DNA from: a bacterium
GTDB lineage: Bacteria > Bdellovibrionota_C > UBA2361 > SZUA-149 > JAEUWB01
Direction: 5' to 3'
Length of the DNA stretch: 51,611 nt
Assembly (NCBI GenBank): GCA_016786595.1
Contig: JAEUWB010000052.1
Span: forward strand, 1-51,611
The position numbers were made by a program, and so were the translations under genes. Numbering within the stretch: the stretch's first letter is position 1; every line of letters starts with the position of its first letter. Positions 21,955 to 48,098 of the stretch are shown piece by piece. Below the pieces are notes generated by a model, which saw only the letters and a program-made list of their open reading frames with translations, was not told the origin of the DNA and did no database searches.

Positions 21955-23478
21955 CTAGTCAAGCGGCTTAATGCGTTTAGCAACTAGACGTTTGGCTTCA
22001 TTGTAATCATCCATTAAATCTTCATACAAAAAACTTTCATTATCATTGCGCACGTCCTTGGCATGAGCACTAGCTAATTTCTGAAAGCGCCTGCCTAGAG
22101 CCTCCTCGTCGGCATCAATTGCTAAGCCAAACTTACTAAAGATGATTTTTAGTCTAGCGCGTTCTTCGCGGTTAAGTCCGAAATTGACCTTATCTAGATC
22201 GAGTTGCATTTCCTGGTATCTTCGCAAAGAAACTAGAGCTGATAAAAATAAAAACAAGCACATCGCGCAAAGCATTAAAACCGGCTCTGAAGGCATTCCA
22301 TATGTATTAGAACTGAGCCCTCGGCCGTCCGCAGTTAGTTGGGAACGTTCTAAGAAACGATTGCGCTGGTCGATCTCGCCCGAGTAATAGCGATAGGAAA
22401 GCTTGAGATAGCGATCAAATGCCTCAGTGTTGTTGCTACGAAAGGAATAGTCAGCAAGTGCAGAATAGAAGGCTGCGGTCTGCTCAGGATAGCGTCGACT
22501 GATGCTTTTGACAAAATCATGCACAGTGGCATCATTTTCAAGGCTACTTAAATCACTAAGTGAGCTTACTTGTTGCAGGACTGTGCCAATCTTCTCCGTT
22601 AGTTTTTCATTCTGCGTCTCTAGAAAACAACTATGAGCAATCCATGTGAGCGACTGGAGTGAATTGAGAGATTTGCTTTCCAGTCGGATGGCAATTAGTT
22701 CGGACTGAAATTTCTGTAAAAAAGCAGAAAATATATTACGTTGCTGATAGAAGTTCTTACAACTACAGTTCTTAGGAAAAAGATCTGCACTTAAAATCGA
22801 CTCGCACTCAATTGCAGAATTGATTAAATTATGCACACTTGGTGATAAAGCAGAATCTGCACTGACTGTTTGACGGATGGCTCTTAAGACTTCGAGTGTT
22901 TTTACATGATCGCTCGGATCGAGCAGGGCTCTTAAATCCTGCTCTCGATACTCTGAATCATGAGCAATAATTAAATTACGTAATTTGATTCTATACTCTG
23001 AGTTGCCAGACTGGATTTCCGGCCAAAGTGCCCGTAGTAAGCCCTGTGAGAGTAAGGGCGCTCTAAATAATGCCTCTGGCAGCAGTTGCTCATAGAGTTC
23101 AACGATTTTTTTAACTCGCGTAATCAGCACCAGCTGATTTGCCTCAGTCTGAGTAAGGATTTGTAAAATTCTCGAGGCTTTCTCGTCACTCACGCGCTCA
23201 CTCGTGAGATAATTCATAAGTTCAGATGCATTAAGTGCAGTAGGTTCGTTTGTCTGCAGTAAAATTTCAATTGCCTCATCGCACCAAATTTTCTTACGCA
23301 CGCCTTCGACAGGTATCTCGCAGGATAGATCGCCGTTATTCAGGCAATCCTGACAGTTAAATTTAATCCCCTTAATCGTCAGAGTTGTGTCAGCTTGAGC
23401 AGCTCGGCTACAAAAAATAAAATTGAGCAGAGCGCAGCAGAAAATGACTAGAGGTTTGCTTGGCATCGTTCTGAACAT
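21955..23478 (-). CDS. Membrane protein with degenerate J-like tail, paralogue 1
   Basis: I do not recognise a named family for the full protein. A signal peptide (ending near AAQADTT) is followed by a module with four cysteines (FNCQDC, LSC and IWC near residues 40-70), a long helical region containing LLRALWPEIQSG, one membrane segment near residue 405 followed by basic residues, and a cytoplasmic tail of about 75 residues. The tail aligns with the J-domain-like tail of the gene at 23929-25440, but HPD is replaced by HAKD (KLASAHAKD). It is the last gene of a coupled operon; its ATG overlaps the stop of the kinase-like gene (TAATG). An in-frame ATG at 23466 is a possible later start. It is 507 residues long. 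Confidence 0.8.
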   Translation of the reverse strand: MFRTMPSKPLVIFCCALLNFIFCSRAAQADTTLTIKGIKFNCQDCLNNGDLSCEIPVEGVRKKIWCDEAIEILLQTNEPTALNASELMNYLTSERVSDEKASRILQILTQTEANQLVLITRVKKIVELYEQLLPEALFRAPLLSQGLLRALWPEIQSGNSEYRIKLRNLIIAHDSEYREQDLRALLDPSDHVKTLEVLRAIRQTVSADSALSPSVHNLINSAIECESILSADLFPKNCSCKNFYQQRNIFSAFLQKFQSELIAIRLESKSLNSLQSLTWIAHSCFLETQNEKLTEKIGTVLQQVSSLSDLSSLENDATVHDFVKSISRRYPEQTAAFYSALADYSFRSNNTEAFDRYLKLSYRYYSGEIDQRNRFLERSQLTADGRGLSSNTYGMPSEPVLMLCAMCLFLFLSALVSLRRYQEMQLDLDKVNFGLNREERARLKIIFSKFGLAIDADEEALGRRFQKLASAHAKDVRNDNESFLYEDLMDDYNEAKRLVAKRIKPLD

Positions 23479-23927
23479 TAACTTTTTACCCTTTCTACTA
23501 CAAGCAAAACACCTTGGCTCTCTAGTAAATACAGTCCATAGAGTGCAGAGATGCTAAAAATGCCTTGATCTTTAACAATAAAGTCAAGTAAGTTATTGGC
23601 TTCAAACCCCTTCAGATAACAAATTAACTTGCGATCTTTAACGATAAAATGATCAAGCATTATGTCACGTCGTTTTAAGTAGTCCGCGATTAGTGTAGCC
23701 GCAAAATTAATTTTTTGATCAGCGCTAGGCTTAGGATCTCCAGACCCTAGTGATTTAAGATAGTCCAAATTTGCAACTATTTTGCTAAGGCTTGCGCGGG
23801 CGTCTGAAAAATCCTCCTGCGAGAGTTCCATTCCGGCAGCAGCATCATTTAGCGTCTGCTGGGCTACTCCCAATGGACTACGCAGGCTGTGCGAAATGCG
23901 TTCAAAGATTTGTTGTAAATAATCCAT
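23478..23927 (-). CDS. Short histidine-kinase-like protein (DHp helix only)
   Basis: The first third resembles a HisKA dimerisation domain: RISHSLRSPLGVAQQ carries the H-box histidine with the usual S-x-LRSPL context, followed by a second helix ending NLDYLKSLG. The remaining 80 residues (from PSADQKI on) do not show N, G1 or G2 boxes, so ATP binding is doubtful. There is no signal peptide or membrane helix. It lies 1 base after the middle J-domain gene and overlaps the next by one base, so it is surely made with them. It could be a phosphotransfer or adaptor protein that docks on a membrane partner or on a response regulator. It is 149 residues long, unusually short for a kinase. Confidence 0.6.
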   Translation of the reverse strand: MDYLQQIFERISHSLRSPLGVAQQTLNDAAAGMELSQEDFSDARASLSKIVANLDYLKSLGSGDPKPSADQKINFAATLIADYLKRRDIMLDHFIVKDRKLICYLKGFEANNLLDFIVKDQGIFSISALYGLYLLESQGVLLVVERVKS

Positions 23928-23928
23928 C

Positions 23929-25440
23929 TTATTGACTTACTTCCACAGTGCGTTTTTTCATGATTTCTCGGGCACGATTATAGTGTTGAGTGAGTTCGCT
24001 AAATTCGTGCGTCTTATTGCCTAGTTGCTTTGGGGCATGCTGCTTAGTGTCAGGGTGTTCCAAACGTGCAAGTTGATGGTACTTGCGTTTGAGTTCAACT
24101 TCAGAGGCATATGCCGGCAAGCGAAAATAAGAAAGTGCGATGCGAAGTTCCATTCTGTCATCTGCGCTGAGCAGTGCGTTGATTGATTCACGCTCAAAAT
24201 TTTCGGTGTCGATCCGTTTTTTAATCATTGCGCCAAGTAGCCCAATTAAGGTGAGGAGCACGGGGAATAAATAAAATGCGCTGGGAACTACTTCTGCAAT
24301 TTGCTCAATTAGATCCTTCTTGTCGTAGACTTCACGAATTTTGGTGATTAATTCTAGGCGTGAAGCGATATCTGCAGGATATAAAATAAATGAGTCATTG
24401 ATCAGTCGGTCACACTCGGCACGATTGCCGGCTGCAAGGAATTGCTCGGCGCGGGCGATATAATAGCGCGCAACGTCCTCGGGAAAGCTGCCTGAAAGTT
24501 TTACAATTAATTGATTAATTTCCGGAGTGTTGGGAACTGCGCCAATACCCGTTGGAGTCGCTACAATACTGAGTGCTTTTTGTGTGGCCTCAGCGATGCG
24601 ATCAAATGGAAAACGTAAAAAACTACTCTCGGCGACCCATTGCAGTAATTGCGGAGCAGGAAGTTTCTTTGTCTCAATACGCTTGAGAAGCATTTCAAGT
24701 TGAAGTTGCCGTAAGAACTTCCGTGCCTCTTGTGGTTGTTGCATGATCGCAGCTTCATTGCATGCTACTGGAAACTTCTCTGTTTCCAGAATTTCTCGGC
24801 AATTACGGATCTGGTTTAGGATTCCTGAGGCAAAGGGCGACTTAATTTGTGCCAACTCCTCTTCAGCCTTGTCGTATTCATGGGCATTCAGTAGGCCGAT
24901 AATATCGCGGTCACGCCCAACTGGGTCACGTTCAATAATTGCTCGCCTCATTTTGGCACGCACGAGTGATTCGCCACTGCGCACATAGGGCCAGAGAGCT
25001 TTTAAAAAATTAGTATCAATCGTTTGAGTGTTTTCTAGACTTGCACTGATTTGGTCTTCGTAAATTGATAGTAAACGCTTAATTGAATCGGTCACAGACT
25101 TGGCGCCAAGCTCAGTAATTAGTAACTTCGTAATTACTGCTTGAGCTCGACTACTTTCGACTTTTGCGCCTAGTAAATAATTTTTTAGTTGATCAACTTT
25201 GAGTTGCTCGATTGGCGTAGCGGAGAGCAATTTATCAAAGGCTTCATTGCAGCTTAACGCCCAGGCTTCACCGTTGAGGTTGATTTCACAGGAAAAAGTA
25301 TCCTTATTGCGGCAGTTCGCGCAGGGAAAATCCACACCATTAATATTAATCAATTCCTCAGCAACTAAGTCGTTTGCGGGCATTCCCAGTGCAAAAAAGC
25401 TAAGTATTAACAAACTGCGTAAAAAATATTTAGTTCCCAT
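23929..25440 (-). CDS. Membrane J-domain protein with four-cysteine domain, paralogue 2
   Basis: The 503-residue protein has a signal peptide (LLILSFFALGMPANDLVA), the four-cysteine module (FPCANC, FSC, LSC), a helical region with LKALWPYVRSGES, a membrane helix near residues 387-406 followed by KKR, and a C-terminal J domain. In the J domain SEVELKRKYHQLARLEHPD holds helix II and the HPD triad at 462-464, and FSELTQHYNRAREIM matches helix III. J domains stimulate Hsp70 (DnaK), so the tail should recruit DnaK to the inner membrane, while the cysteine module faces the periplasm. That split topology is unusual. Its start overlaps the preceding paralogue by 11 bases. Confidence is high for the architecture and low for the role. 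Confidence 0.82.
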   Translation of the reverse strand: MGTKYFLRSLLILSFFALGMPANDLVAEELININGVDFPCANCRNKDTFSCEINLNGEAWALSCNEAFDKLLSATPIEQLKVDQLKNYLLGAKVESSRAQAVITKLLITELGAKSVTDSIKRLLSIYEDQISASLENTQTIDTNFLKALWPYVRSGESLVRAKMRRAIIERDPVGRDRDIIGLLNAHEYDKAEEELAQIKSPFASGILNQIRNCREILETEKFPVACNEAAIMQQPQEARKFLRQLQLEMLLKRIETKKLPAPQLLQWVAESSFLRFPFDRIAEATQKALSIVATPTGIGAVPNTPEINQLIVKLSGSFPEDVARYYIARAEQFLAAGNRAECDRLINDSFILYPADIASRLELITKIREVYDKKDLIEQIAEVVPSAFYLFPVLLTLIGLLGAMIKKRIDTENFERESINALLSADDRMELRIALSYFRLPAYASEVELKRKYHQLARLEHPDTKQHAPKQLGNKTHEFSELTQHYNRAREIMKKRTVEVSQ

Positions 25441-27103
25441 GTGGGTCTGCCTTTTTCTTAATCAGATCAATTGCACGGTGCAGATCTGTTGTAAGTTTAT
25501 GAAAAGATTCTACTGTGGATCCCGGGTGGGTTGCATCGGATTGGATTTGCTTGGCAAGAATTTTAAAACGCTCCCAAAGTTGTAATTCAGTTGCATCCTC
25601 AGGTAACGCAAATTTCTTGAGTAAGTTATGGAGTTCAGAGCTTTCGCCATGCACCAACGAATGCGGGCGTTGTTTGCGGTGGCGTTTTTCTTTATGCTTG
25701 CGTACAATGATATGAATGACCAGGAACAAAACTAGCGCTATCAGTAGCGGTACCCAGTAAAATTCAGCCAGTAAGTCAAAAAATTTATCAATTGCAGGTT
25801 TGTTTGCATCGGGTAGGGCGACACTTTTCAGTAGGGTGTTTCGTTCTGCAATTTCTAGAGGGTAAATCAAATATGACTCATTCAGATAACGCTCAACCCC
25901 ACCAGGATCATTTTTATTTGAAGCGGCTTTGGCCATTGCTGCGTAAAGCAACGCTACGTCTTCAGGGTAAAGGGAAGAAATGCGCGTCAACGCATGTTTT
26001 ACGTTTCTGGTGAGTTTGAAAATATTTAAATCCGAGGCATTTTTGGCTTGCGCAATTTTGTCGCGTAGTACACTCGATACCCTACCAATTGGGAAGACCA
26101 AATAGCTGCTGTTGGCAATCAATTGGATCGCTTTGGTGGCAGACAGATCGTCGGTCATGACGCGTTTTAGTAGAAACTCTAGCTGTATACCACGTAGGAA
26201 TTTACGGCTAAACTCAGGAAATTTTTGGATTTCAATTTCACTACATTCAAGTGGGAATTTATCTGCAGTTAATAGTGGTTCGCAGCGGGTGATAAAATTT
26301 AATATTTTAAAACCAAAACTGCAGACTGGATTGTTACGAAAGCGCTGATCTGTGCAGAGCGACTTAACTTCCGCTGTGACCTGCAGTGGATTTGTGGCGT
26401 CAAGTAGGCTGAGTAAGTCTACCTCGCGATTATCTGTGTCACGTTGCAGGACTAAGCGACGTAGAATTTTTTGATATTCAGAACGACCCGAACTGACTTG
26501 GTTCCAAAGCGCTCTTAGCACCGTCCGGCTTGGTGGCGGTTCAAGTCCATTGATTACTTCAGAAAGAGGGCGCTCGAATTTTTCCACAATTAGCTTCATC
26601 GAGTTAGCCAAATTCTGCGATTCGCTTTCGCTCTGCAGCAGCTTAGTAAGTATTAATTTAGCTCGAGTGTCTGAAATTTGTGAGGAGAGGGCGTAAATGC
26701 GTAGCTGTGAGAGGCTAATTTCGCTGCCCGCTGTCGACTCAAGTAGATAATCAAAGAGGTCTTCGCAGGATTTCTTTTCGACTTGTCCATTTAGAAAGAT
26801 GCTGCAGGTAAGTCCATCATGAAGATCGCACCCACTGGGGCAGGGAAAATTAATGCCATTAAGCGAGATCGACTTTTGGAAGTTTGCAGCTGAATGAAGT
26901 CCCCGATCTGTTTGAATCGGCACCTCTGGGGCCTGTCCAGGAGTGGCAACGATAGTTCCTCCGGTAGCAAGTTCTTGATTACTAGTAGTGCGAGGATTTT
27001 CTAAGGGGACAAAGTTTTTTTCTTGAGCGTACGCAACAACGACCCCGAATAGGCCGATAATATAGAGGGGAAGGGAATAACTTAAAGTTCTTAACTTTCT
27101 CAT
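25430..27103 (-). CDS. Membrane protein with degenerate J-like tail, paralogue 3
   Basis: This is the first gene of the operon. The ATG at 27103 starts a clear signal peptide (MRKLRTLSYSLPLYIIGLF, cleavage near AYA) and gives 557 residues; a TTG at 27202 is the longer alternative. A linker of about 50 residues precedes the cysteine module (FPCPSGC, LTC, KKSC), the helical region with LRALWNQVSSGRSEY, a membrane helix (FYWVPLLIALVLFLVIHII) followed by basic residues, and a tail that aligns with the J domain of the next gene but has QSD instead of HPD (LAKQIQSD). The three paralogues share pattern and order but are divergent, so the duplication is old. No clear ribosome site is seen. The divergent neighbour is the Tad operon. 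Confidence 0.78.
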   Translation of the reverse strand: MRKLRTLSYSLPLYIIGLFGVVVAYAQEKNFVPLENPRTTSNQELATGGTIVATPGQAPEVPIQTDRGLHSAANFQKSISLNGINFPCPSGCDLHDGLTCSIFLNGQVEKKSCEDLFDYLLESTAGSEISLSQLRIYALSSQISDTRAKLILTKLLQSESESQNLANSMKLIVEKFERPLSEVINGLEPPPSRTVLRALWNQVSSGRSEYQKILRRLVLQRDTDNREVDLLSLLDATNPLQVTAEVKSLCTDQRFRNNPVCSFGFKILNFITRCEPLLTADKFPLECSEIEIQKFPEFSRKFLRGIQLEFLLKRVMTDDLSATKAIQLIANSSYLVFPIGRVSSVLRDKIAQAKNASDLNIFKLTRNVKHALTRISSLYPEDVALLYAAMAKAASNKNDPGGVERYLNESYLIYPLEIAERNTLLKSVALPDANKPAIDKFFDLLAEFYWVPLLIALVLFLVIHIIVRKHKEKRHRKQRPHSLVHGESSELHNLLKKFALPEDATELQLWERFKILAKQIQSDATHPGSTVESFHKLTTDLHRAIDLIKKKADPHGN

Positions 27104-27162
27104 GCAGGACAAGGTGTTAGCACAGCTAAAGCAGATTGACACATGAATTTTGCCAGCTTTGC

Positions 27163-27191
27163 TTGATCTTTTTCTGATAAGAGTATAGATA
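27163..27191 (+). promoter_or_regulatory. Possible sigma-70 promoter for the Tad operon
   Basis: TTGATC (27163-27168) and TAGATA (27186-27191) are 17 bases apart, in the 188-base gap between the divergent J-like and Tad operons. The -35 box is fair and the -10 box is weak, so this is only a candidate. Confidence 0.25.
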
Positions 27192-27291
27192 CAATTCGCC
27201 AATTAGGTCAGTAGCTATCATGCACGTGGGGCCTGGGGCGGAGCTAGATTTCCGGCGGAATATTGATATAAGTCGGAGGGATGGAGTGCAA

Positions 27292-28860
27292 ATGAGGATT
27301 GCCTGCGTAGATAAAACAGCAGCTGACCGCCTAGCCTTGGAGCAGTTTTTTGATGCTGCTTTCGAGCGTTGCCGAAACTCAATCGGCCACTTAACGGTTG
27401 GACGTTGCTACCCTGCCTCTCGCGAGGAAGTACTATTGAATAGTGCTCCTGATATCGTGGCAATCGGTCCACAGCTTTCCGTTGAAGAAGTTCAAACATT
27501 TGCCACAGAATTTCGTAAATCATTTCCTACAGCCGCAATCTTTGTCATTCTCAAGCAAGAAAATTACTCACTTCGTGCCCTCAAGCGTCTTGAGGCAGTC
27601 TCTGCGGAGGTCTTTTCCGTTGATGACTCACCTGTGCGCATTATTCACGCGGTCTCTGTCGTTGAAACAACAAAATCTAATGCCTCGCTTGGAAAAATTG
27701 TAACAATCCATGGCGTAAAGGGCGGAGTAGGCTCGACCACGATAACTGCAGCCCTGGCACATGCTGCTCAAGCCTTGGGGAAAAAGCCACTCGTGCTGGA
27801 CCTGTCACTCAGCGGCTCTCTGGCGCATTACCTGAACGCCGACAAGTCTCAGTCTGCTGACTATGCAGCACTCTTAATAGATTTTCTCTATCCAGACGAT
27901 CAACTTGCAAAGCGACTGATCACAACTGCGCCAAACGGAATTGACCTAGTGATGCAACCTGCTGGTGGCACGGATGTGCGTGAGTATTGGCTGCGCGATC
28001 AAAGACGTTTTGAGCTCACGCTTAACTTATTAGAGTATTATCAAAGCGTTTATGACGTAGTTTTAATTGATACTTCGCGCATTGAAGGAGTTTTATATTT
28101 TGCCCTAACAACGCGGGCGGATGTGCGTTTACTTGTGACTTCAAATGAGGCCGCCTCAGTGCACTTACTGAGCACAGCTTTGACTACTGTTGCTGACTAT
28201 CCTGGACAAGGCAAAATTAAAATTATCATGAACATGCTGCAAGAGCGCGGCTTAACTCGGGACGACATCTTGGATTTCTTGTTTGTGAATGATGCCTTCG
28301 AGGAGCAGATGACTTCAGTTGGGACTTTGCCATTTGATCTCAAGTCTAGAAATTGGATTGGTACGGGAAATACTTTTTACACTGAGGCTTCAAAACACAC
28401 TCAAGATCTATTAGAACGTGCATTAGCAGATTTAATCGAACTAAAATTAGATCGCCCATCTTTAGCTGAGAACGCAGTCAAGAAGTTTGATTTTTCAAAA
28501 CTCATTCCTGGCATTTGGAAGAAAGAAAGAATGGAGCGTAAAGGTTTGCCACTGCCACAAGCCAAACTGCCAGCTTCGACTGAAACTTTAGTTGGTGCTT
28601 CAAATAACAAAATCAAGCAATTACATCCGATTTTAATGCCGCTTGGTGAGTCAATTCAAGTTGAACATGTTTCGAATCACGGCCAAAGGGCATTTGTGAA
28701 AGTGCCTGAGGCTGCGCAGCTTACTGCTCAAGTTGCAGCAGAAGTTACTACGGAAAATTCCGTCGCGCCTACGCTAGATAATTTAGCTGATTTATATCAG
28801 GCCCCAGAAATTCAGGAAGTAAGTGAGATCATCGGTAATGTTGCAGGAGGAGCTAAGTAA
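27292..28860 (+). CDS. tadZ: TadZ/CpaE-like pilus localisation ATPase
   Basis: TadZ/CpaE proteins place the Tad (Flp pilus) secretion machine at a cell site. The first 120 residues resemble a receiver-like domain without a clear phospho-acceptor. Then comes a ParA/MinD-type ATPase with VTIHGVKGGVGSTTITAAL, a P-loop lacking the usual lysine before TT, as often seen in this family, and VLDLSLSGSLA and VVLIDTSRIEG as further nucleotide motifs. The ATG at 27292 has GGAG upstream; a longer start at 27220 is unsupported. The last 100 residues are a low-complexity linker with the end EIIGNVAGGAK. It starts the Tad operon and the first pilin gene begins 1 base after its stop. Confidence 0.88.
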   Translation: MRIACVDKTAADRLALEQFFDAAFERCRNSIGHLTVGRCYPASREEVLLNSAPDIVAIGPQLSVEEVQTFATEFRKSFPTAAIFVILKQENYSLRALKRLEAVSAEVFSVDDSPVRIIHAVSVVETTKSNASLGKIVTIHGVKGGVGSTTITAALAHAAQALGKKPLVLDLSLSGSLAHYLNADKSQSADYAALLIDFLYPDDQLAKRLITTAPNGIDLVMQPAGGTDVREYWLRDQRRFELTLNLLEYYQSVYDVVLIDTSRIEGVLYFALTTRADVRLLVTSNEAASVHLLSTALTTVADYPGQGKIKIIMNMLQERGLTRDDILDFLFVNDAFEEQMTSVGTLPFDLKSRNWIGTGNTFYTEASKHTQDLLERALADLIELKLDRPSLAENAVKKFDFSKLIPGIWKKERMERKGLPLPQAKLPASTETLVGASNNKIKQLHPILMPLGESIQVEHVSNHGQRAFVKVPEAAQLTAQVAAEVTTENSVAPTLDNLADLYQAPEIQEVSEIIGNVAGGAK

Positions 28861-28861
28861 G

Positions 28862-29035
28862 ATGCGTAGTTTTTTGACTACAAATTGTCGTGGCACTTTA
28901 TCGCTTGAGCAAGTTTTACTTATTTCTGGCGTAGGCTTGGTCATTGCTGGGCTTACTTATTTCATGCAAGCAATGGGCAGCTACGCAGAAAGATATAACG
29001 ATAGTTACACAACCAGCAGTGGAAGTGGAAATTGA
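28862..29035 (+). CDS. flp: Flp-like pilin 1
   Basis: The 57-residue product fits a Flp-type prepilin: a short basic leader, a prepilin peptidase site CRGTLSLEQ (glycine, four residues, then glutamate) and a hydrophobic helix VLLISGVGLVIAGLTYFM. Canonical Flp pilins have EY after the site; here it is EQ. The tail is short and ends SYTTSSGSGN. AGGAGG is 12 bases before the ATG. It sits between tadZ and a second pilin gene. Short size and family divergence keep the confidence moderate. Confidence 0.7.
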   Translation: MRSFLTTNCRGTLSLEQVLLISGVGLVIAGLTYFMQAMGSYAERYNDSYTTSSGSGN

Positions 29036-29066
29036 TTTTTTATTAACAACCAAGGAGGAAAACAAA

Positions 29067-29285
29067 ATGAAACGTAATAGAAAAAATGAAAGAGGAAGTT
29101 TGTCGCTTGAGCATGTGTTGTTTATTGCGGCAATTGTAGTAATCGGCGGGGTTATATCACAGTTTTTCGGCGCGATCGGAACTTTCTTCACTGAAGCGAC
29201 TGAGTTCGTAGGAGGGCATAATGGTAATCCTGGCACTAGTACTTCGTCTTCCGGAACATCGTCGAGTTCGGGAACTGGTGGTTGA
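29067..29285 (+). CDS. flp: Flp-like pilin 2
   Basis: The 72-residue product resembles the preceding pilin: NERGSLSLEHVLFIAA has the same G-x4-E prepilin cleavage pattern, with EH in place of EY, and a hydrophobic helix (VLFIAAIVVIGGVISQFF). The tail of about 25 residues is almost only Ser, Thr and Gly (GTSTSSSGTSSSSGTGG), which is unusual for a pilin and might be glycosylated or flexible. AAGGAGG lies 8 bases before the ATG at 29067. Being two tandem copies, one may be a minor pilin. Confidence 0.72.
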   Translation: MKRNRKNERGSLSLEHVLFIAAIVVIGGVISQFFGAIGTFFTEATEFVGGHNGNPGTSTSSSGTSSSSGTGG

Positions 29286-29324: not shown

Positions 29325-30404
29325 GTGAAAACAAATAAACGCCCGAAGAAATTACGATCACGCACATCTACTATGGTGCCTGTGGCCGTTGCACTAATGT
29401 GCCTCTCTGGCGGGATGGTTTACATGGCAATGAAAAAAACAAACCCTCCTTTGGCTGTTACAAAAGAACCACCACAAGTGCTCTCAACTGAGGACACTGT
29501 GGTGGTTCCTACTCCGGAACGGCCAATTGCTCGCGGAGAAAAGCTTAGTGACGTAAAATTCTCTTACACTAAGTGGCCCAAAAGCAAACTCACCGGGGAC
29601 TATGTAATCGACATTAATTCTTTCGGTGACGCAGTCGCACTTGCTCAGCTCCCAGAATATCTACCAATCCCGGTTAGCGCTGTGAGTAAAGGTGCAATCG
29701 ACATGAACGCAGTCGTCGAAGGCATTCCTGAAGGAATGCGTGCAATCACAGTACGCGTCGATGCTGAGTCTGCCGTTGAAGGCTGGGCCAGATCGGGAAA
29801 TTTCGTCGATGTGATCCTCATTCGCGGTGGAAACGATGGACTCGAAGCTAAAGTTATTGCCGAGAATGTGCGAATCTTATCGGCAGAACGCCAGGCAAAA
29901 CCTGTAAACTCAGGAGCGACCGCCCCCGAAGCCCCGCGAACCGTAACACTGCTGACAACTCAAGAAGACGCCCTAAAGATTAAAGCCTCCTCGAATATTG
30001 GGAAATTAACCTTCGCGCTACGCGGGGAAGGGGATGCGGAACCAACAGCCATCACCGGGCTTTCTCAAAAAAATCTCCTCGGTGAAGCGCCAAATACACG
30101 CGCCGTGTCGGACTTGGTTAAAGGTTACGCCAAGGATTCTACGGGAAAAGTGTATCTTTTAAATGATAAGTCACGCTGGCTACGTGCTGCAGATGCAGAA
30201 AAAAGCCCTTTTGCAGCAGTAAGTAAGCCAGAAACGAATAGCGCAGAAAAAAGTAATACTGTGCAAAATAACACCGAGAAAAGTAATATCGAAAAGCCCG
30301 CGCACGAGGCATCTGCTCTCAATACCCTTTCACGTGCTCAACTCGAGCAAGACAAAATCAAAGCTAGCGAGGCCAAGTCAGATGAAAGAAACACTATCAA
30401 CTGA
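29325..30404 (+). CDS. cpaB: Flp pilus assembly protein CpaB/RcpC
   Basis: CpaB (RcpC) is a periplasmic Tad component with SAF and RcpC domains that works with the outer-membrane secretin. The 359-residue protein starts with a GTG, supported by GGAGG 9 bases upstream, and has one N-terminal membrane helix (VPVAVALMCLSGGMVYMAM). The SAF-like part carries PIARGEKLSDVKF and GAIDMNAVVEGIPEGMRAITVRVD, followed by GNFVDVILIRGG, the family's beta-clip pattern. The last 80 residues are low-complexity and charged, with a repeated EKSN word. The secretin gene usually next to it is missing. The frame overlaps the ATPase gene by 23 bases. Confidence 0.85.
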   Translation: MKTNKRPKKLRSRTSTMVPVAVALMCLSGGMVYMAMKKTNPPLAVTKEPPQVLSTEDTVVVPTPERPIARGEKLSDVKFSYTKWPKSKLTGDYVIDINSFGDAVALAQLPEYLPIPVSAVSKGAIDMNAVVEGIPEGMRAITVRVDAESAVEGWARSGNFVDVILIRGGNDGLEAKVIAENVRILSAERQAKPVNSGATAPEAPRTVTLLTTQEDALKIKASSNIGKLTFALRGEGDAEPTAITGLSQKNLLGEAPNTRAVSDLVKGYAKDSTGKVYLLNDKSRWLRAADAEKSPFAAVSKPETNSAEKSNTVQNNTEKSNIEKPAHEASALNTLSRAQLEQDKIKASEAKSDERNTIN

Positions 30405-31800
30405 TGAAATTCTAAAACGCTATTTCGGTTCAACTGAGCAAGTTGCAGCAACACTGAAAACTGCCCCAGTCGATCTTAAAACAGAAGCTAACGAAAGACC
30501 AAATCCTGGCCCAGAAAAATCTAATGACCTGACACCGACAGGTAAATTTATTGTGCGTGAAGCCAAGCGTCGCTTAGGTGAGCAGTCAGCATTCGGATCA
30601 AAAAAAGCACTCGATGAAACTGAGCTTTTAAGACTGGTGCAGACAATTGAAACAACAAGCGGTGACGAATTACACGAGCGCGAACGCACAGCTGTTGTCG
30701 CGGCACTTAGTGCCTCACTCGATCACTACGATATTATTAGCCCCCTAATTCAAAACCCAGAAGTAAACGATATTATCATCCGCAACTGGCGTGATATTAG
30801 TATTCAAAGTGGTCGTCGTAATATTCAAACTGATTTACGCTTTCCCGATGAAATTTCTTATAAGTCATTTGTGGAAAATCTACTTAAGCGCTGCGGCAAA
30901 TCTTGCACCACAGCAACTCCCGTAGTCGATGCGGCAATTGACCCGCATGTGCGAGCCTGCGTAACCCATGAATCCTTTTCACCGCCTGGCTCTGGACCGA
31001 TGATGACCTTGCGTATCGCGCGTCACCGCGCGATTTCACTTGATGCCTTAGTGCAGTACGGCCTTGCCCCGCGGGTGATTCTTGAATACCTAGCGACAAT
31101 TGCGCACTCAGGCGATGCGACAATTTTAATTGCCGGAGAAGTTGGTTCGGGAAAAACAACGCTGATTAAAGCCCTGACTTCAAGGATTGATGTTAACGAA
31201 GCGATTTTAGTGATCGAAGACACGCATGAACTTGTACTTGAAAGAAAATTTGTGCGCACACTCTTAACTCGTGAAGCAAATACCGAAGGGGCGGGGAGAA
31301 TATCACCAGCGCAAGCGATTCGCACAGGTATGCGTATGGCAATGAACCGCGTGATTCTCGGAGAAATGCGCGATGCTGAGGCGGCTGAAGCATTTATTGA
31401 CGTTTGTGCCTCGGGCCATGCTGGGATGTCGACAATTCACGCACGCAGTGCGCGTGACGCGATTTATCGTCTTGAAATATTTCTCGCACGGGCGCAAGGA
31501 AATGTCACAATTGAGACAATTCGTCGACAGATCGCAAACGCAATTTCGGTGATTGTTTTTATTAATGTCGACCCTAAAACTTCAAAGCGTCGCATCTATG
31601 AAGTGCTTGAAGTTGGCACTTCCTCTGATGGCGCAGTACAAGTATCACCAATGTTTTCTTTTAAAGGTATTAAGGGGCAAGAAGACAACCCACGCTGGAA
31701 AAGAGATTCCGGAATTTCTAAGTTTCAGGACTTACTTAAGACGGAAGATCTACAAATTGGCTTAGGTGGGGAAACTATTGACCTTGATACGGAAATGTAA
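30382..31800 (+). CDS. tadA: Tad secretion ATPase TadA/CpaF
   Basis: TadA/CpaF is the cytoplasmic hexameric ATPase that drives Flp pilus assembly. The core has Walker A AGEVGSGKTTLI, the Asp-box EDTHELVLERKFVRTLLTREAN, the GRISPAQAIRTGMRMAMNRVILGEMRDAEAAEAF Walker B region described here only by its ends, and a His-box around ASGHAGMSTIHARSA. The ATG at 30382 gives 472 residues and has a GAGG nearby; the longer start at 30334 overlaps cpaB further. The N-terminal 100 residues are a polar arm typical of CpaF. tadB follows 15 bases downstream. Confidence 0.93.
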   Translation: MKETLSTDEILKRYFGSTEQVAATLKTAPVDLKTEANERPNPGPEKSNDLTPTGKFIVREAKRRLGEQSAFGSKKALDETELLRLVQTIETTSGDELHERERTAVVAALSASLDHYDIISPLIQNPEVNDIIIRNWRDISIQSGRRNIQTDLRFPDEISYKSFVENLLKRCGKSCTTATPVVDAAIDPHVRACVTHESFSPPGSGPMMTLRIARHRAISLDALVQYGLAPRVILEYLATIAHSGDATILIAGEVGSGKTTLIKALTSRIDVNEAILVIEDTHELVLERKFVRTLLTREANTEGAGRISPAQAIRTGMRMAMNRVILGEMRDAEAAEAFIDVCASGHAGMSTIHARSARDAIYRLEIFLARAQGNVTIETIRRQIANAISVIVFINVDPKTSKRRIYEVLEVGTSSDGAVQVSPMFSFKGIKGQEDNPRWKRDSGISKFQDLLKTEDLQIGLGGETIDLDTEM

Positions 31801-31815
31801 ATTCAAATTAAGACC

Positions 31816-32742
31816 ATGGCAGTTGCAAAATTAAACACAACAAAGCTTGCTAACTTCTTTCGTCCGGAAAGGCGTGTGGCACTTGAGCGCATGGTTGCAC
31901 TTAAAGATACGCAAAATTCAAACCCGGCAGTCAAGCCTGTAGTGCTAGTTAAGGATAAAGCAAACGAAAGCGCAGAGCCTCTGCGTGAAGAAATCCCCGA
32001 CCGGGGCCTTAAGCTTAGTCTTTATCAAGCCAAATTATCGATTAACCCTCTGGCTTTTAGATCTCTGGCGGCGCTTATAGCTGCTGTTGTTGTGTTTTTT
32101 ACAAGTAAAATTTTATCATTTTATGTAATTCCTTTGATCGCCTACGGGGCATATACTTTGCCTTTTTCTTACTTAAGAAACCGCGCGCAAAAGCGTGCTG
32201 CTCAGTTCAACGAAGATTATCCCACAGTATTAATGGCGATGGCGTCAAGTCTAAAAGTGGGGATGAATCCCTATATGGCTTTGGAACGCGCTGTAAAGCT
32301 TTTACAAAAGACAAGCCCAATTCGTGTTGAAGTGGAAAGGCTTTTACTTGAGCTGCGTAAAGGTACGTCCCGCGAAGAAGCAGTTCGCTATTTTGCTGCA
32401 GACATTGCACTACCTGATTTAGATCTCTTTCGTGCTGCGTTTTTACTAGTGCTTGAGAATGGTGGACGCTTTGCGCCAACTTTACAGCGCCTAGCTCAAG
32501 TCAGCCGCGACAGGGAGACCTTAACTTCAAGTGCATTAGTCAGCACAACAACGATGCGTATGACTGCAAATATTTTGCTTTTAGTTACGCCCTTTGTCGT
32601 GGGCATGATTGCAGTACGCACCAAGGATTTCTGGGAGATTATTTTACATCACCCAGTTGCAAATGGCATGGCAACTGCGGGTGTTTTAATTATTATTGTC
32701 GGCTATGCAGCACTTAGACGGATGAGTGATTTTCGACCATGA
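31816..32742 (+). CDS. tadB: Tad inner-membrane protein TadB
   Basis: TadB is one of two inner-membrane platform proteins of the Tad system, with a type II secretion F domain. The 308-residue protein has two hydrophobic segments near residues 85-130 and two at the end. The conserved F-domain helix reads VLMAMASSLKVGMNPYMALE, followed by ALPDLDLFRAAFLLVLENGG. The N-terminal 70 residues are hydrophilic. It overlaps tadC by four bases (ATGA), as expected for a protein pair made in equal amounts. Confidence 0.88.
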   Translation: MAVAKLNTTKLANFFRPERRVALERMVALKDTQNSNPAVKPVVLVKDKANESAEPLREEIPDRGLKLSLYQAKLSINPLAFRSLAALIAAVVVFFTSKILSFYVIPLIAYGAYTLPFSYLRNRAQKRAAQFNEDYPTVLMAMASSLKVGMNPYMALERAVKLLQKTSPIRVEVERLLLELRKGTSREEAVRYFAADIALPDLDLFRAAFLLVLENGGRFAPTLQRLAQVSRDRETLTSSALVSTTTMRMTANILLLVTPFVVGMIAVRTKDFWEIILHHPVANGMATAGVLIIIVGYAALRRMSDFRP

Positions 32743-33656
32743 ATCTAAGTATAATCTTAATTGCCTTAGCTGTTGTTGCACTAATCGCAGCGGGCTTGAT
32801 GATTGCTAACTCCCGGCGCGAGAAAATCCGTGCGCAAGTTTACGATTTGATTATCCGGGATTTAGAGGCGAAAAATGAAGACGATAGCCCGGTTGATTGG
32901 ACTAAAACAAGCCAAGCTTTAAATACTCTCACTGATAAACTTGGTCAGGCAGGGTTTATTACTCCTGAGGATCGTGTCCGGGCAAAGAATTTAAAATATT
33001 GCTTTATTTTTATGCCTGCGCTCTCAGGTTTTACGCTTGGTGCTTTAAAGGGCTCAGTGCCACTTGCCTTTGGGCTGAGCTTACTTGGGCTTTATCTCGG
33101 ATTAGTTGCCTGGGTTTTTTATTTAAAAAATCAAGTTAAGGATTTCCGCCGTGAGCTCATGTATCAGATCCCACTTGGTCTAGAGAGTATTATTCTTTTA
33201 GTTGAAGCGGGACTTGGAATTTTACCTGCGATGGAGCGTGTCGTGACACGGTCAAAATCAAGTTATGCGGGAAAGCACGAGAGTTTTAGTCGCATCCTAG
33301 CCTTAGTCTATGAACTTACAGCCCACGGCATGCCCTTTAGTATGGCCTTAGAAGCAGTTGCCAGTGCTACAAATATCAAGCTTTTACGACACGTCTTATT
33401 GCACCTTGATATTTCTGGGAGTGAAGGAGGGGAGTTGATTCCGTCGCTACGAAGTTTAAGTGACCATGCGCATACGGAGTGGCGCCTATCGGTTGAAAGG
33501 CGGGTGAAAAAACTGGAGAATTATGTGGTGTTTCCAGTTTTTGCCTCTGTGATTGGACTAATGATTTTAACTGCCGCGGTGCCGATTGTGCCGCTACTAA
33601 ATCTCCGTCAGGAATTAAGTCAAAAACGCAGCATGGATAGCTCGCCGCTAAAGTAA
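32739..33656 (+). CDS. tadC: Tad inner-membrane protein TadC
   Basis: TadC is the second platform protein of the Tad secretion machine. The 305-residue protein starts with a membrane helix (IILIALAVVALIAAGLMIA) and contains another pair near residues 90-130. The F domain shows YQIPLGLESIILLVEAGLG and SLSDHAHTEWRLSVERRVKKLE before a last hydrophobic pair. It ends the recognisable Tad block; secretin, prepilin peptidase and TadE/TadF-type genes are not seen nearby. Confidence 0.87.
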   Translation: MNLSIILIALAVVALIAAGLMIANSRREKIRAQVYDLIIRDLEAKNEDDSPVDWTKTSQALNTLTDKLGQAGFITPEDRVRAKNLKYCFIFMPALSGFTLGALKGSVPLAFGLSLLGLYLGLVAWVFYLKNQVKDFRRELMYQIPLGLESIILLVEAGLGILPAMERVVTRSKSSYAGKHESFSRILALVYELTAHGMPFSMALEAVASATNIKLLRHVLLHLDISGSEGGELIPSLRSLSDHAHTEWRLSVERRVKKLENYVVFPVFASVIGLMILTAAVPIVPLLNLRQELSQKRSMDSSPLK

Positions 33657-47104: not shown

Positions 47105-48098
47105 TTAAGCAGCCATTTTAGATTCATATTCCAAAGGGGTGAGATAGCCGAGAACTTTCATGGGGCGGTGATTAAACCAGTCTTGAACGTTTTGGACCTG
47201 TTGAGCTGTAACCTCATCAAAATTAGTTTTCTTAGGAAAGAAGCGCCTCAGGATCCCGTTAATAGCCTCAACTGTGCCACGTTCCCAAGCGCAGTAAGGA
47301 TGACAGAAATAGATTTTGAAATCATTGTCTGCAAAGACAGGTTCGAGGAAAGCAAGCTCTTGGTGCTCAGGACCGTTATCGACAGTAAGAGTTTTCTTAA
47401 CCTGAGCTTGCAAAATCGTAAATAGCGCCTGCCTGACTGTGTGAGCTTGGCGGTTAGGTAGTAAGCGTAAATGCAGATGTCTATTCTGACGGTCAACTAG
47501 CACCAATAACGAGCTTTTTCCATGACGTGCAGAAACTATTAGGTCCGACTCCCAGTGCCCCGGCTCGCCTCTTAGATTAGCCTTCACTGGACGAAGCTCA
47601 ATACTACGCTTGGATTCTTCAACAGCTCTCGGTCTTCTGCCGCTAGCTCGATTAATACCTCGACTCTTGCCCTTACGCGGTAAATCCTTAATCAACTCCT
47701 TAGCTTGATGATAAATGTATTGGTAAATCGACTCATGCGAAATACTTTGACCTTGCTTGTCCATGCCAATACGATTGGCAATTATTTGCGGCGACCAGCC
47801 AAGTTCAATTTTCTCACGCACATACACCCGCGTTACTTCGTTTTTCAGTCCCCAGCCATCGACCCGCTTCGATTTGCGCAGCTTCTGGCGTTGACTTTGA
47901 CGAACTTGGGCTTTCTCCAGCGCACTTAAATCTTCATAAAATCTTAGCTGCCTCTTGCCTCTCCTCAGTTCTCGGCATCACCCCACTATGATGCCGCTTG
48001 AGCTTGTAACCAATTCTCCGGGCACTTAAGCCTCGCTCTGATAAACGATAGTTCTCACCCAACTCTTCCTCATCCAGGTCTTTCCCGCGCTTTCCCAT
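47105..48098 (-). pseudogene. IS30-family transposase, frameshifted
   Basis: From the ATG at 48098 the first frame gives MGKRGKDLDEEELGENYRLS, a helix-turn-helix with LSARRIGYKLKRHHSG, and stops at 47934. The conserved protein continues in the next frame from about 47977 as CRELRRG, then RFYEDLSALEKAQ and the DDE domain: GHWESDLIV (first aspartate), TVDNGPEHQEL (second aspartate) and CAWERGTVEAINGILRRFFPKKT (glutamate and IS30-type end). The breakpoint lies near 47970-47985. A single-base change explains it, so the element should be inactive unless frameshifting restores the full protein. Confidence 0.85.

Follow-up and report, generated by a model that had tools for sequence, protein, structure and literature searches.

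A divergent Tad-linked operon of three membrane-anchored J-like paralogues and a small DHp protein

The window, that is, the whole stretch of DNA analysed here (51,611 nucleotides), contains a compact minus-strand operon of four genes. From high to low coordinates these encode J1 (25430..27103, 557 aa), J2 (23929..25440, 503 aa), a small protein with a DHp H-box (23478..23927, 149 aa) and J3 (21955..23478, 507 aa). J1 and J2 overlap by 11 bases, J2 and the small protein lie 1 base apart, and the small protein and J3 have 1 base in common, so that the four open reading frames, their strand and their tight junctions are as the initial annotation of this DNA had placed them. The operon is also, as was claimed then, divergent from a Tad locus, from which it is separated by a short intergenic region (27104..27219). 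The plus-strand genes on the far side encode a CpaE/TadZ-like ATPase of the ParA/MinD type (27220..28860), a probable Flp-type pilin (28944..29285), CpaB/RcpC (29325..30404; Pfam accession PF16976), the CpaF/TadA ATPase (30334..31800; PF00437), TadB (31816..32742; PF00482) and TadC (32739..33656; PF00482). The pilin was recognised from the sequence itself (RGSLSLEHVLF...); it has no Pfam match and its true start is probably further in. With CpaE, CpaB/RcpC, CpaF, TadB and TadC all present in the usual order, the set can be assigned as a Tad locus. Elsewhere in the window, a transposase-like open reading frame (IS30-like by eye) occupies 47105-47827.

J1, J2 and J3 are full-length paralogues that share 27-31% identity (pairwise E=5e-70, 4e-57 and 7e-50). 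Each begins with an N-terminal signal-like segment, followed by a cysteine module (CxxC/CxxxC...C...C) and an all-helical region with the motif ALWxxxxSG, and each ends in one strong C-terminal membrane helix, basic residues and a J-like tail. The architecture proposed at the outset for the three adjacent genes (signal peptide, cysteine module, LxALWxxxxSG helical region, membrane helix with basic residues, J-like tail) thus stands, with paralogy over the full length. The predicted topology places the cysteine module and the helical domain outside and the J-like tail in the cytosol. An AlphaFold2 model of J2, built on a shallow alignment of three sequences (mean pLDDT 76), has strands around the cysteine module, a helical solenoid, the membrane helix (about residues 392-421) and then the J helices. 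Pfam and NCBIfam searches gave no name for the outer domains of J1-J3, and Foldseek with the J2 model returned weak helical-repeat matches only, with no named match for the fold of the outer domain. The sole result of a scan of genome contigs, a Photobacterium match (26% over 165 residues), was judged to be a chance hit.

The module of four cysteines that had first been described is present in all three proteins (C88-C113 in J1; C40, C43, C51 and C64 in J2), but the cysteines conserved across J1-J3 number six rather than four, the additional two (C214 and C227 in J2 numbering) belonging to the helical domain. Among relatives these positions vary: the homologue in genome G002 lacks the fourth cysteine and that in G004 the first two. 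A sensing role for the cysteine domain, which had also been suggested, finds no support in these data. The residues belong to the part predicted to be outside, are partly missing from two genomes, and could equally well form disulphides or bind metal.

We then considered the tails. Pfam recognises only that of J2 as DnaJ, at 22.3 bits against a cut-off of 27.8. A profile of 14 family members, searched against the PDB, matched solved J-domains over the tail at 8.8e-9. An HMM built from the tails of relatives only, with the window proteins left out, gave scores of 61 bits for J2, 43 for J1 and 27 for J3. The best scores among 1000 shuffles each were 8.6 bits for the J1 tail and 13.9 bits for the J3 tail, so both tails are J-like beyond chance. 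In the J2 model, helices I, II and III of a J-domain can be traced with HPD between II and III, the HPD loop itself being of low confidence. By profile, and for J2 by structure prediction too, the J fold first proposed for J1, J2 and J3 holds, with J3 the weakest of the three.

The HPD motif is confined to the middle protein, as had been noted at the start: J2 has HPD at 462-464, and at the same site J1 has QSD and J3 has AKD (the latter originally written as HAKD). Judged by fold and motif, J2 is a J-domain protein of class C, and J1 and J3 are J-like only. HPD is needed for stimulation of Hsp70, and its retention in all homologous tails from relatives (13 of 13) implies an interaction with DnaK. 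The window's genome encodes DnaK and a general DnaJ. A second full-length DnaK-type protein is encoded on another of its contigs (C33, 16043-17719).

The tails might instead be plain protein-protein interaction modules that act without DnaK as a scaffold for CpaF or CpaE. Such a role would suit J1 and J3, which have lost the H and P of HPD yet keep its Asp and the tail as a whole, and would sit easily with a J2 score under the Pfam cut-off. The invariance of HPD in the relatives' tails is hard to explain without DnaK binding, and we regard a pure scaffold as improbable.

Relatives were sought in 46 genomes of the class (the same 46 constitute the phylum set), 15 of which belong to the window's order. 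Homologues with cysteine module, transmembrane helix and J tail occur in at least 12 of these 15 genomes, and searches of the remaining 31 genomes of the phylum set found none. Outside the order, J tails only were matched, and mostly came from a second family. We observe that this second family of bitopic J-proteins has a signal-like N-terminus, a helical domain, a transmembrane helix and an HPD J-domain, without a cysteine module (contig C26 of the window's genome, 9855-11276, and six other loci). Its genes sit in a conserved accB-accC-DUF1573-J cluster, in the window's genome near a secretin gene and aroQ, and the family reaches beyond the order, within the class.

In a maximum-likelihood tree, J1-J3 form one clade with support of 100/99; branches are long in this tree and its deeper forks unresolved. 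The triplication is thereby confined to the lineage of the window, and the simplest history would be that of a single ancestral HPD-bearing gene which was triplicated there, two copies then losing H and P. Because the HPD losses are lineage-specific, the proposed arrangement of one catalytic and two non-catalytic subunits is no general feature of the family. The loss of HPD from J1 and J3 and their strong divergence (branch lengths 1.1-1.4) could also mark the two as decaying duplicates without a role, J2 alone being functional. We consider this very unlikely: the operon is closely packed, the frames of J1 and J3 are intact over their full length, and even after deep divergence both proteins keep the membrane helix, the helices of the tail and all six cysteines.

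Comparison of relatives gives strong support to the association between these J genes and Tad loci that had been suspected initially. A J gene is found in or beside a Tad operon in eight genomes, namely the window's (G000), G001, G002, G003, G004, G005, G009 and G010. The divergent arrangement recurs in G003 and G005, in the latter with the N-terminal part of the gene at a contig end. The J gene lies inside the Tad operon in G001, G002, G004, G009 and G010, where the order is TadC, response regulator or its N-domain, hybrid kinase and J. In G012 and G014, the J gene is at a contig edge, directly after the kinase that elsewhere sits in the Tad operon. Since a Tad operon takes up a few kilobases of genomes of 2-4.5 Mb, chance does not explain why the two are found side by side again and again in different families, and by homology and gene order J1-J3 belong to a J-protein family of Tad loci. 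Among the 15 genomes of the order, four have a Tad locus for which we could find no linked J gene (in G007 the gene is elsewhere; G006, G008 and G013 have none, partly owing to contig gaps), so the J protein may not be universally required. Extra J copies away from Tad are present in G009, G010 and G012.

The 149-residue protein embedded in the operon had been described as a short histidine-kinase-like protein. The HisKA-like part of this description stands, as the protein carries a DHp H-box (ISHSLRSPLG, with H13), but it is not a histidine kinase: Pfam and NCBIfam searches found no HATPase_c domain, either in this protein or in homologues from three other loci. Its HisKA match is weak (E=0.04), and across eight homologous sequences neither H13 nor R16 varies. 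A single-sequence model of moderate confidence (pLDDT 69) predicts a two-helix hairpin with a small alpha/beta tail, and Foldseek with this model gave weak matches that include CpxA and Spo0B (1f51, E=0.23). Phosphotransferases of the Spo0B/ChpT type consist of a DHp helical hairpin with an H-box and a C-terminal domain that lacks ATP-binding motifs. The 149-residue protein has the same H-box with a phosphoacceptor histidine, in a predicted hairpin, and a C-terminal part that likewise lacks ATP-binding motifs, though this part is very short and only a putative degenerate CA-like domain, and the protein is thus a candidate phosphotransferase of this type.

The DHp protein belongs to a Tad-linked family. 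In G009, G011 and G012 its homologues are encoded after the J gene, and in G002 before CpaE, while those of G010 and G001 are surrounded by genes for TadE/G-like proteins or T2SS-type ATPases. A hybrid kinase that ends in a receiver domain and a response regulator are encoded in the Tad operon of relatives and, in the window's genome, on the edge of contig C13 (25-2804). The N-terminal region of the latter regulator resembles, by eye, the N-domain of type II secretion ATPases. The small DHp protein, though co-expressed with the J proteins, would most likely have a separate task, that of phosphotransfer between the hybrid kinase linked to Tad and the response regulator. As a more general observation, small DHp-only proteins without a detected ATPase domain recur beside Tad, TadE/G or T2SS-ATPase-like genes at four loci, which suggests that pilus-linked phosphotransferases form a family.

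Gene order raises the question of whether the J proteins are themselves the input or regulatory arm of a Tad-linked phosphorelay, with an outer domain that sees the state of the envelope or pilus and a J-domain that acts, with or without DnaK, on the hybrid kinase, the DHp protein or the response regulator. The J gene directly follows the hybrid kinase in G001, G002, G004, G009, G010 and G014, and the succession of J gene and DHp gene is common to G009, G011, G012 and the window. The argument is purely one of gene order, however, and in G000, G003 and G005 a divergent J gene stands apart from the kinase. The variation of the cysteines in two genomes also counts against an input function, and we know of no established role for J-domains as kinase inputs. 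We see this as an unlikely alternative.

We give about an even chance to the reading in which the J operon is a co-chaperone unit specific to the Tad locus, where J2 recruits DnaK to the Tad machine, J1 and J3 are non-catalytic partners, and the DHp protein takes part in phosphotransfer. Each J protein would be anchored by its one membrane helix, and the outer domain may bind envelope parts of the Tad system. Recruitment of DnaK by J2 is favoured because the J-domain is predicted to be at the cytosolic face, the site where CpaE and CpaF work, and because relatives have kept HPD. At this face of the Tad machine, the HPD J-domain of J2 would dock DnaK and stimulate its ATPase, and DnaK could then act on a Tad component (the pilin, CpaE or CpaF, for example) by assembling it, remodelling it or keeping it competent. 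As products of the triplication that lost H and P, J1 and J3 would bind or regulate J2, by analogy with the action of Pam16 on Pam18 in mitochondria.

Little is known about the recruitment of Hsp70 to bacterial pilus and secretion machines. With a J-protein gene that recurs at Tad loci, a role for DnaK in the assembly of type IVc pili can be tested directly. The sister proteins, two of which have naturally lost HPD, provide a bacterial test of how sets of active and pseudo J-proteins evolve, which has so far been studied mostly in mitochondria. J-proteins and links between chaperones and pili are known as such. A literature search in which subscription journals were thinly covered found no published J-protein encoded at a Tad locus, and what is new, as far as could be searched, is a Tad-encoded family of bitopic J-proteins with an expansion into active and pseudo-J members.

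Several known systems invite comparison with this locus. Usual Tad (Flp/type IVc) operons have CpaE, CpaB, CpaF, TadB and TadC in the same order as the window. The loci described here differ by the added J-protein and, in the case of the relatives, by a hybrid kinase and a response regulator that regularly lie next to the Tad genes. DjlA is a bacterial membrane J-protein with an N-terminal membrane motif, a TerB-like domain and a cytosolic C-terminal J-domain. J1-J3 resemble it in the membrane anchor and the predicted cytosolic C-terminal position of the J-domain, whereas DjlA has neither the signal peptide and outer cysteine/helical domain nor the Tad linkage. In Nostoc, DnaK1, DnaJ3 and GrpE make up a chaperone system, and PilB, the motor of the type IV pilus, is an interaction partner of DnaK1, the cyanobacterial DnaK/DnaJ pair having been identified by expression and co-occurrence (PMC9239167). 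Both cases tie an Hsp70/J system to a type IV filament machine, but the J protein described here has a membrane anchor, a gene at a Tad (type IVc) locus and degenerate sisters.

The closest functional parallel is offered by Pam18 (Tim14) and Pam16 (Tim16) of the mitochondrial import motor, where a bitopic protein with a C-terminal J-domain on the inner face of a membrane machine is paired with an HPD-less J-like partner. By sequence, the set of J2 with the degenerate J1 and J3 and their predicted topology fit this pattern. J1-J3 differ in their large outer domain with cysteines, in being three subunits and in belonging to a pilus machine, and their pairing is putative. No Pam18 or Pam16 chain was present among the PDB matches up to E=0.1 that would point to a sequence relation beyond the J fold, so the parallel is one of likeness in working and not of descent. 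It is possible, though we hold it rather doubtful, that the operon is a bacterial and separately evolved counterpart of the Pam18/Pam16 motor, in which the Tad machine has its own membrane-bound DnaK recruiter, tuned by two HPD-less sisters, next to a Tad-dedicated phosphorelay of kinase, DHp protein and regulator.
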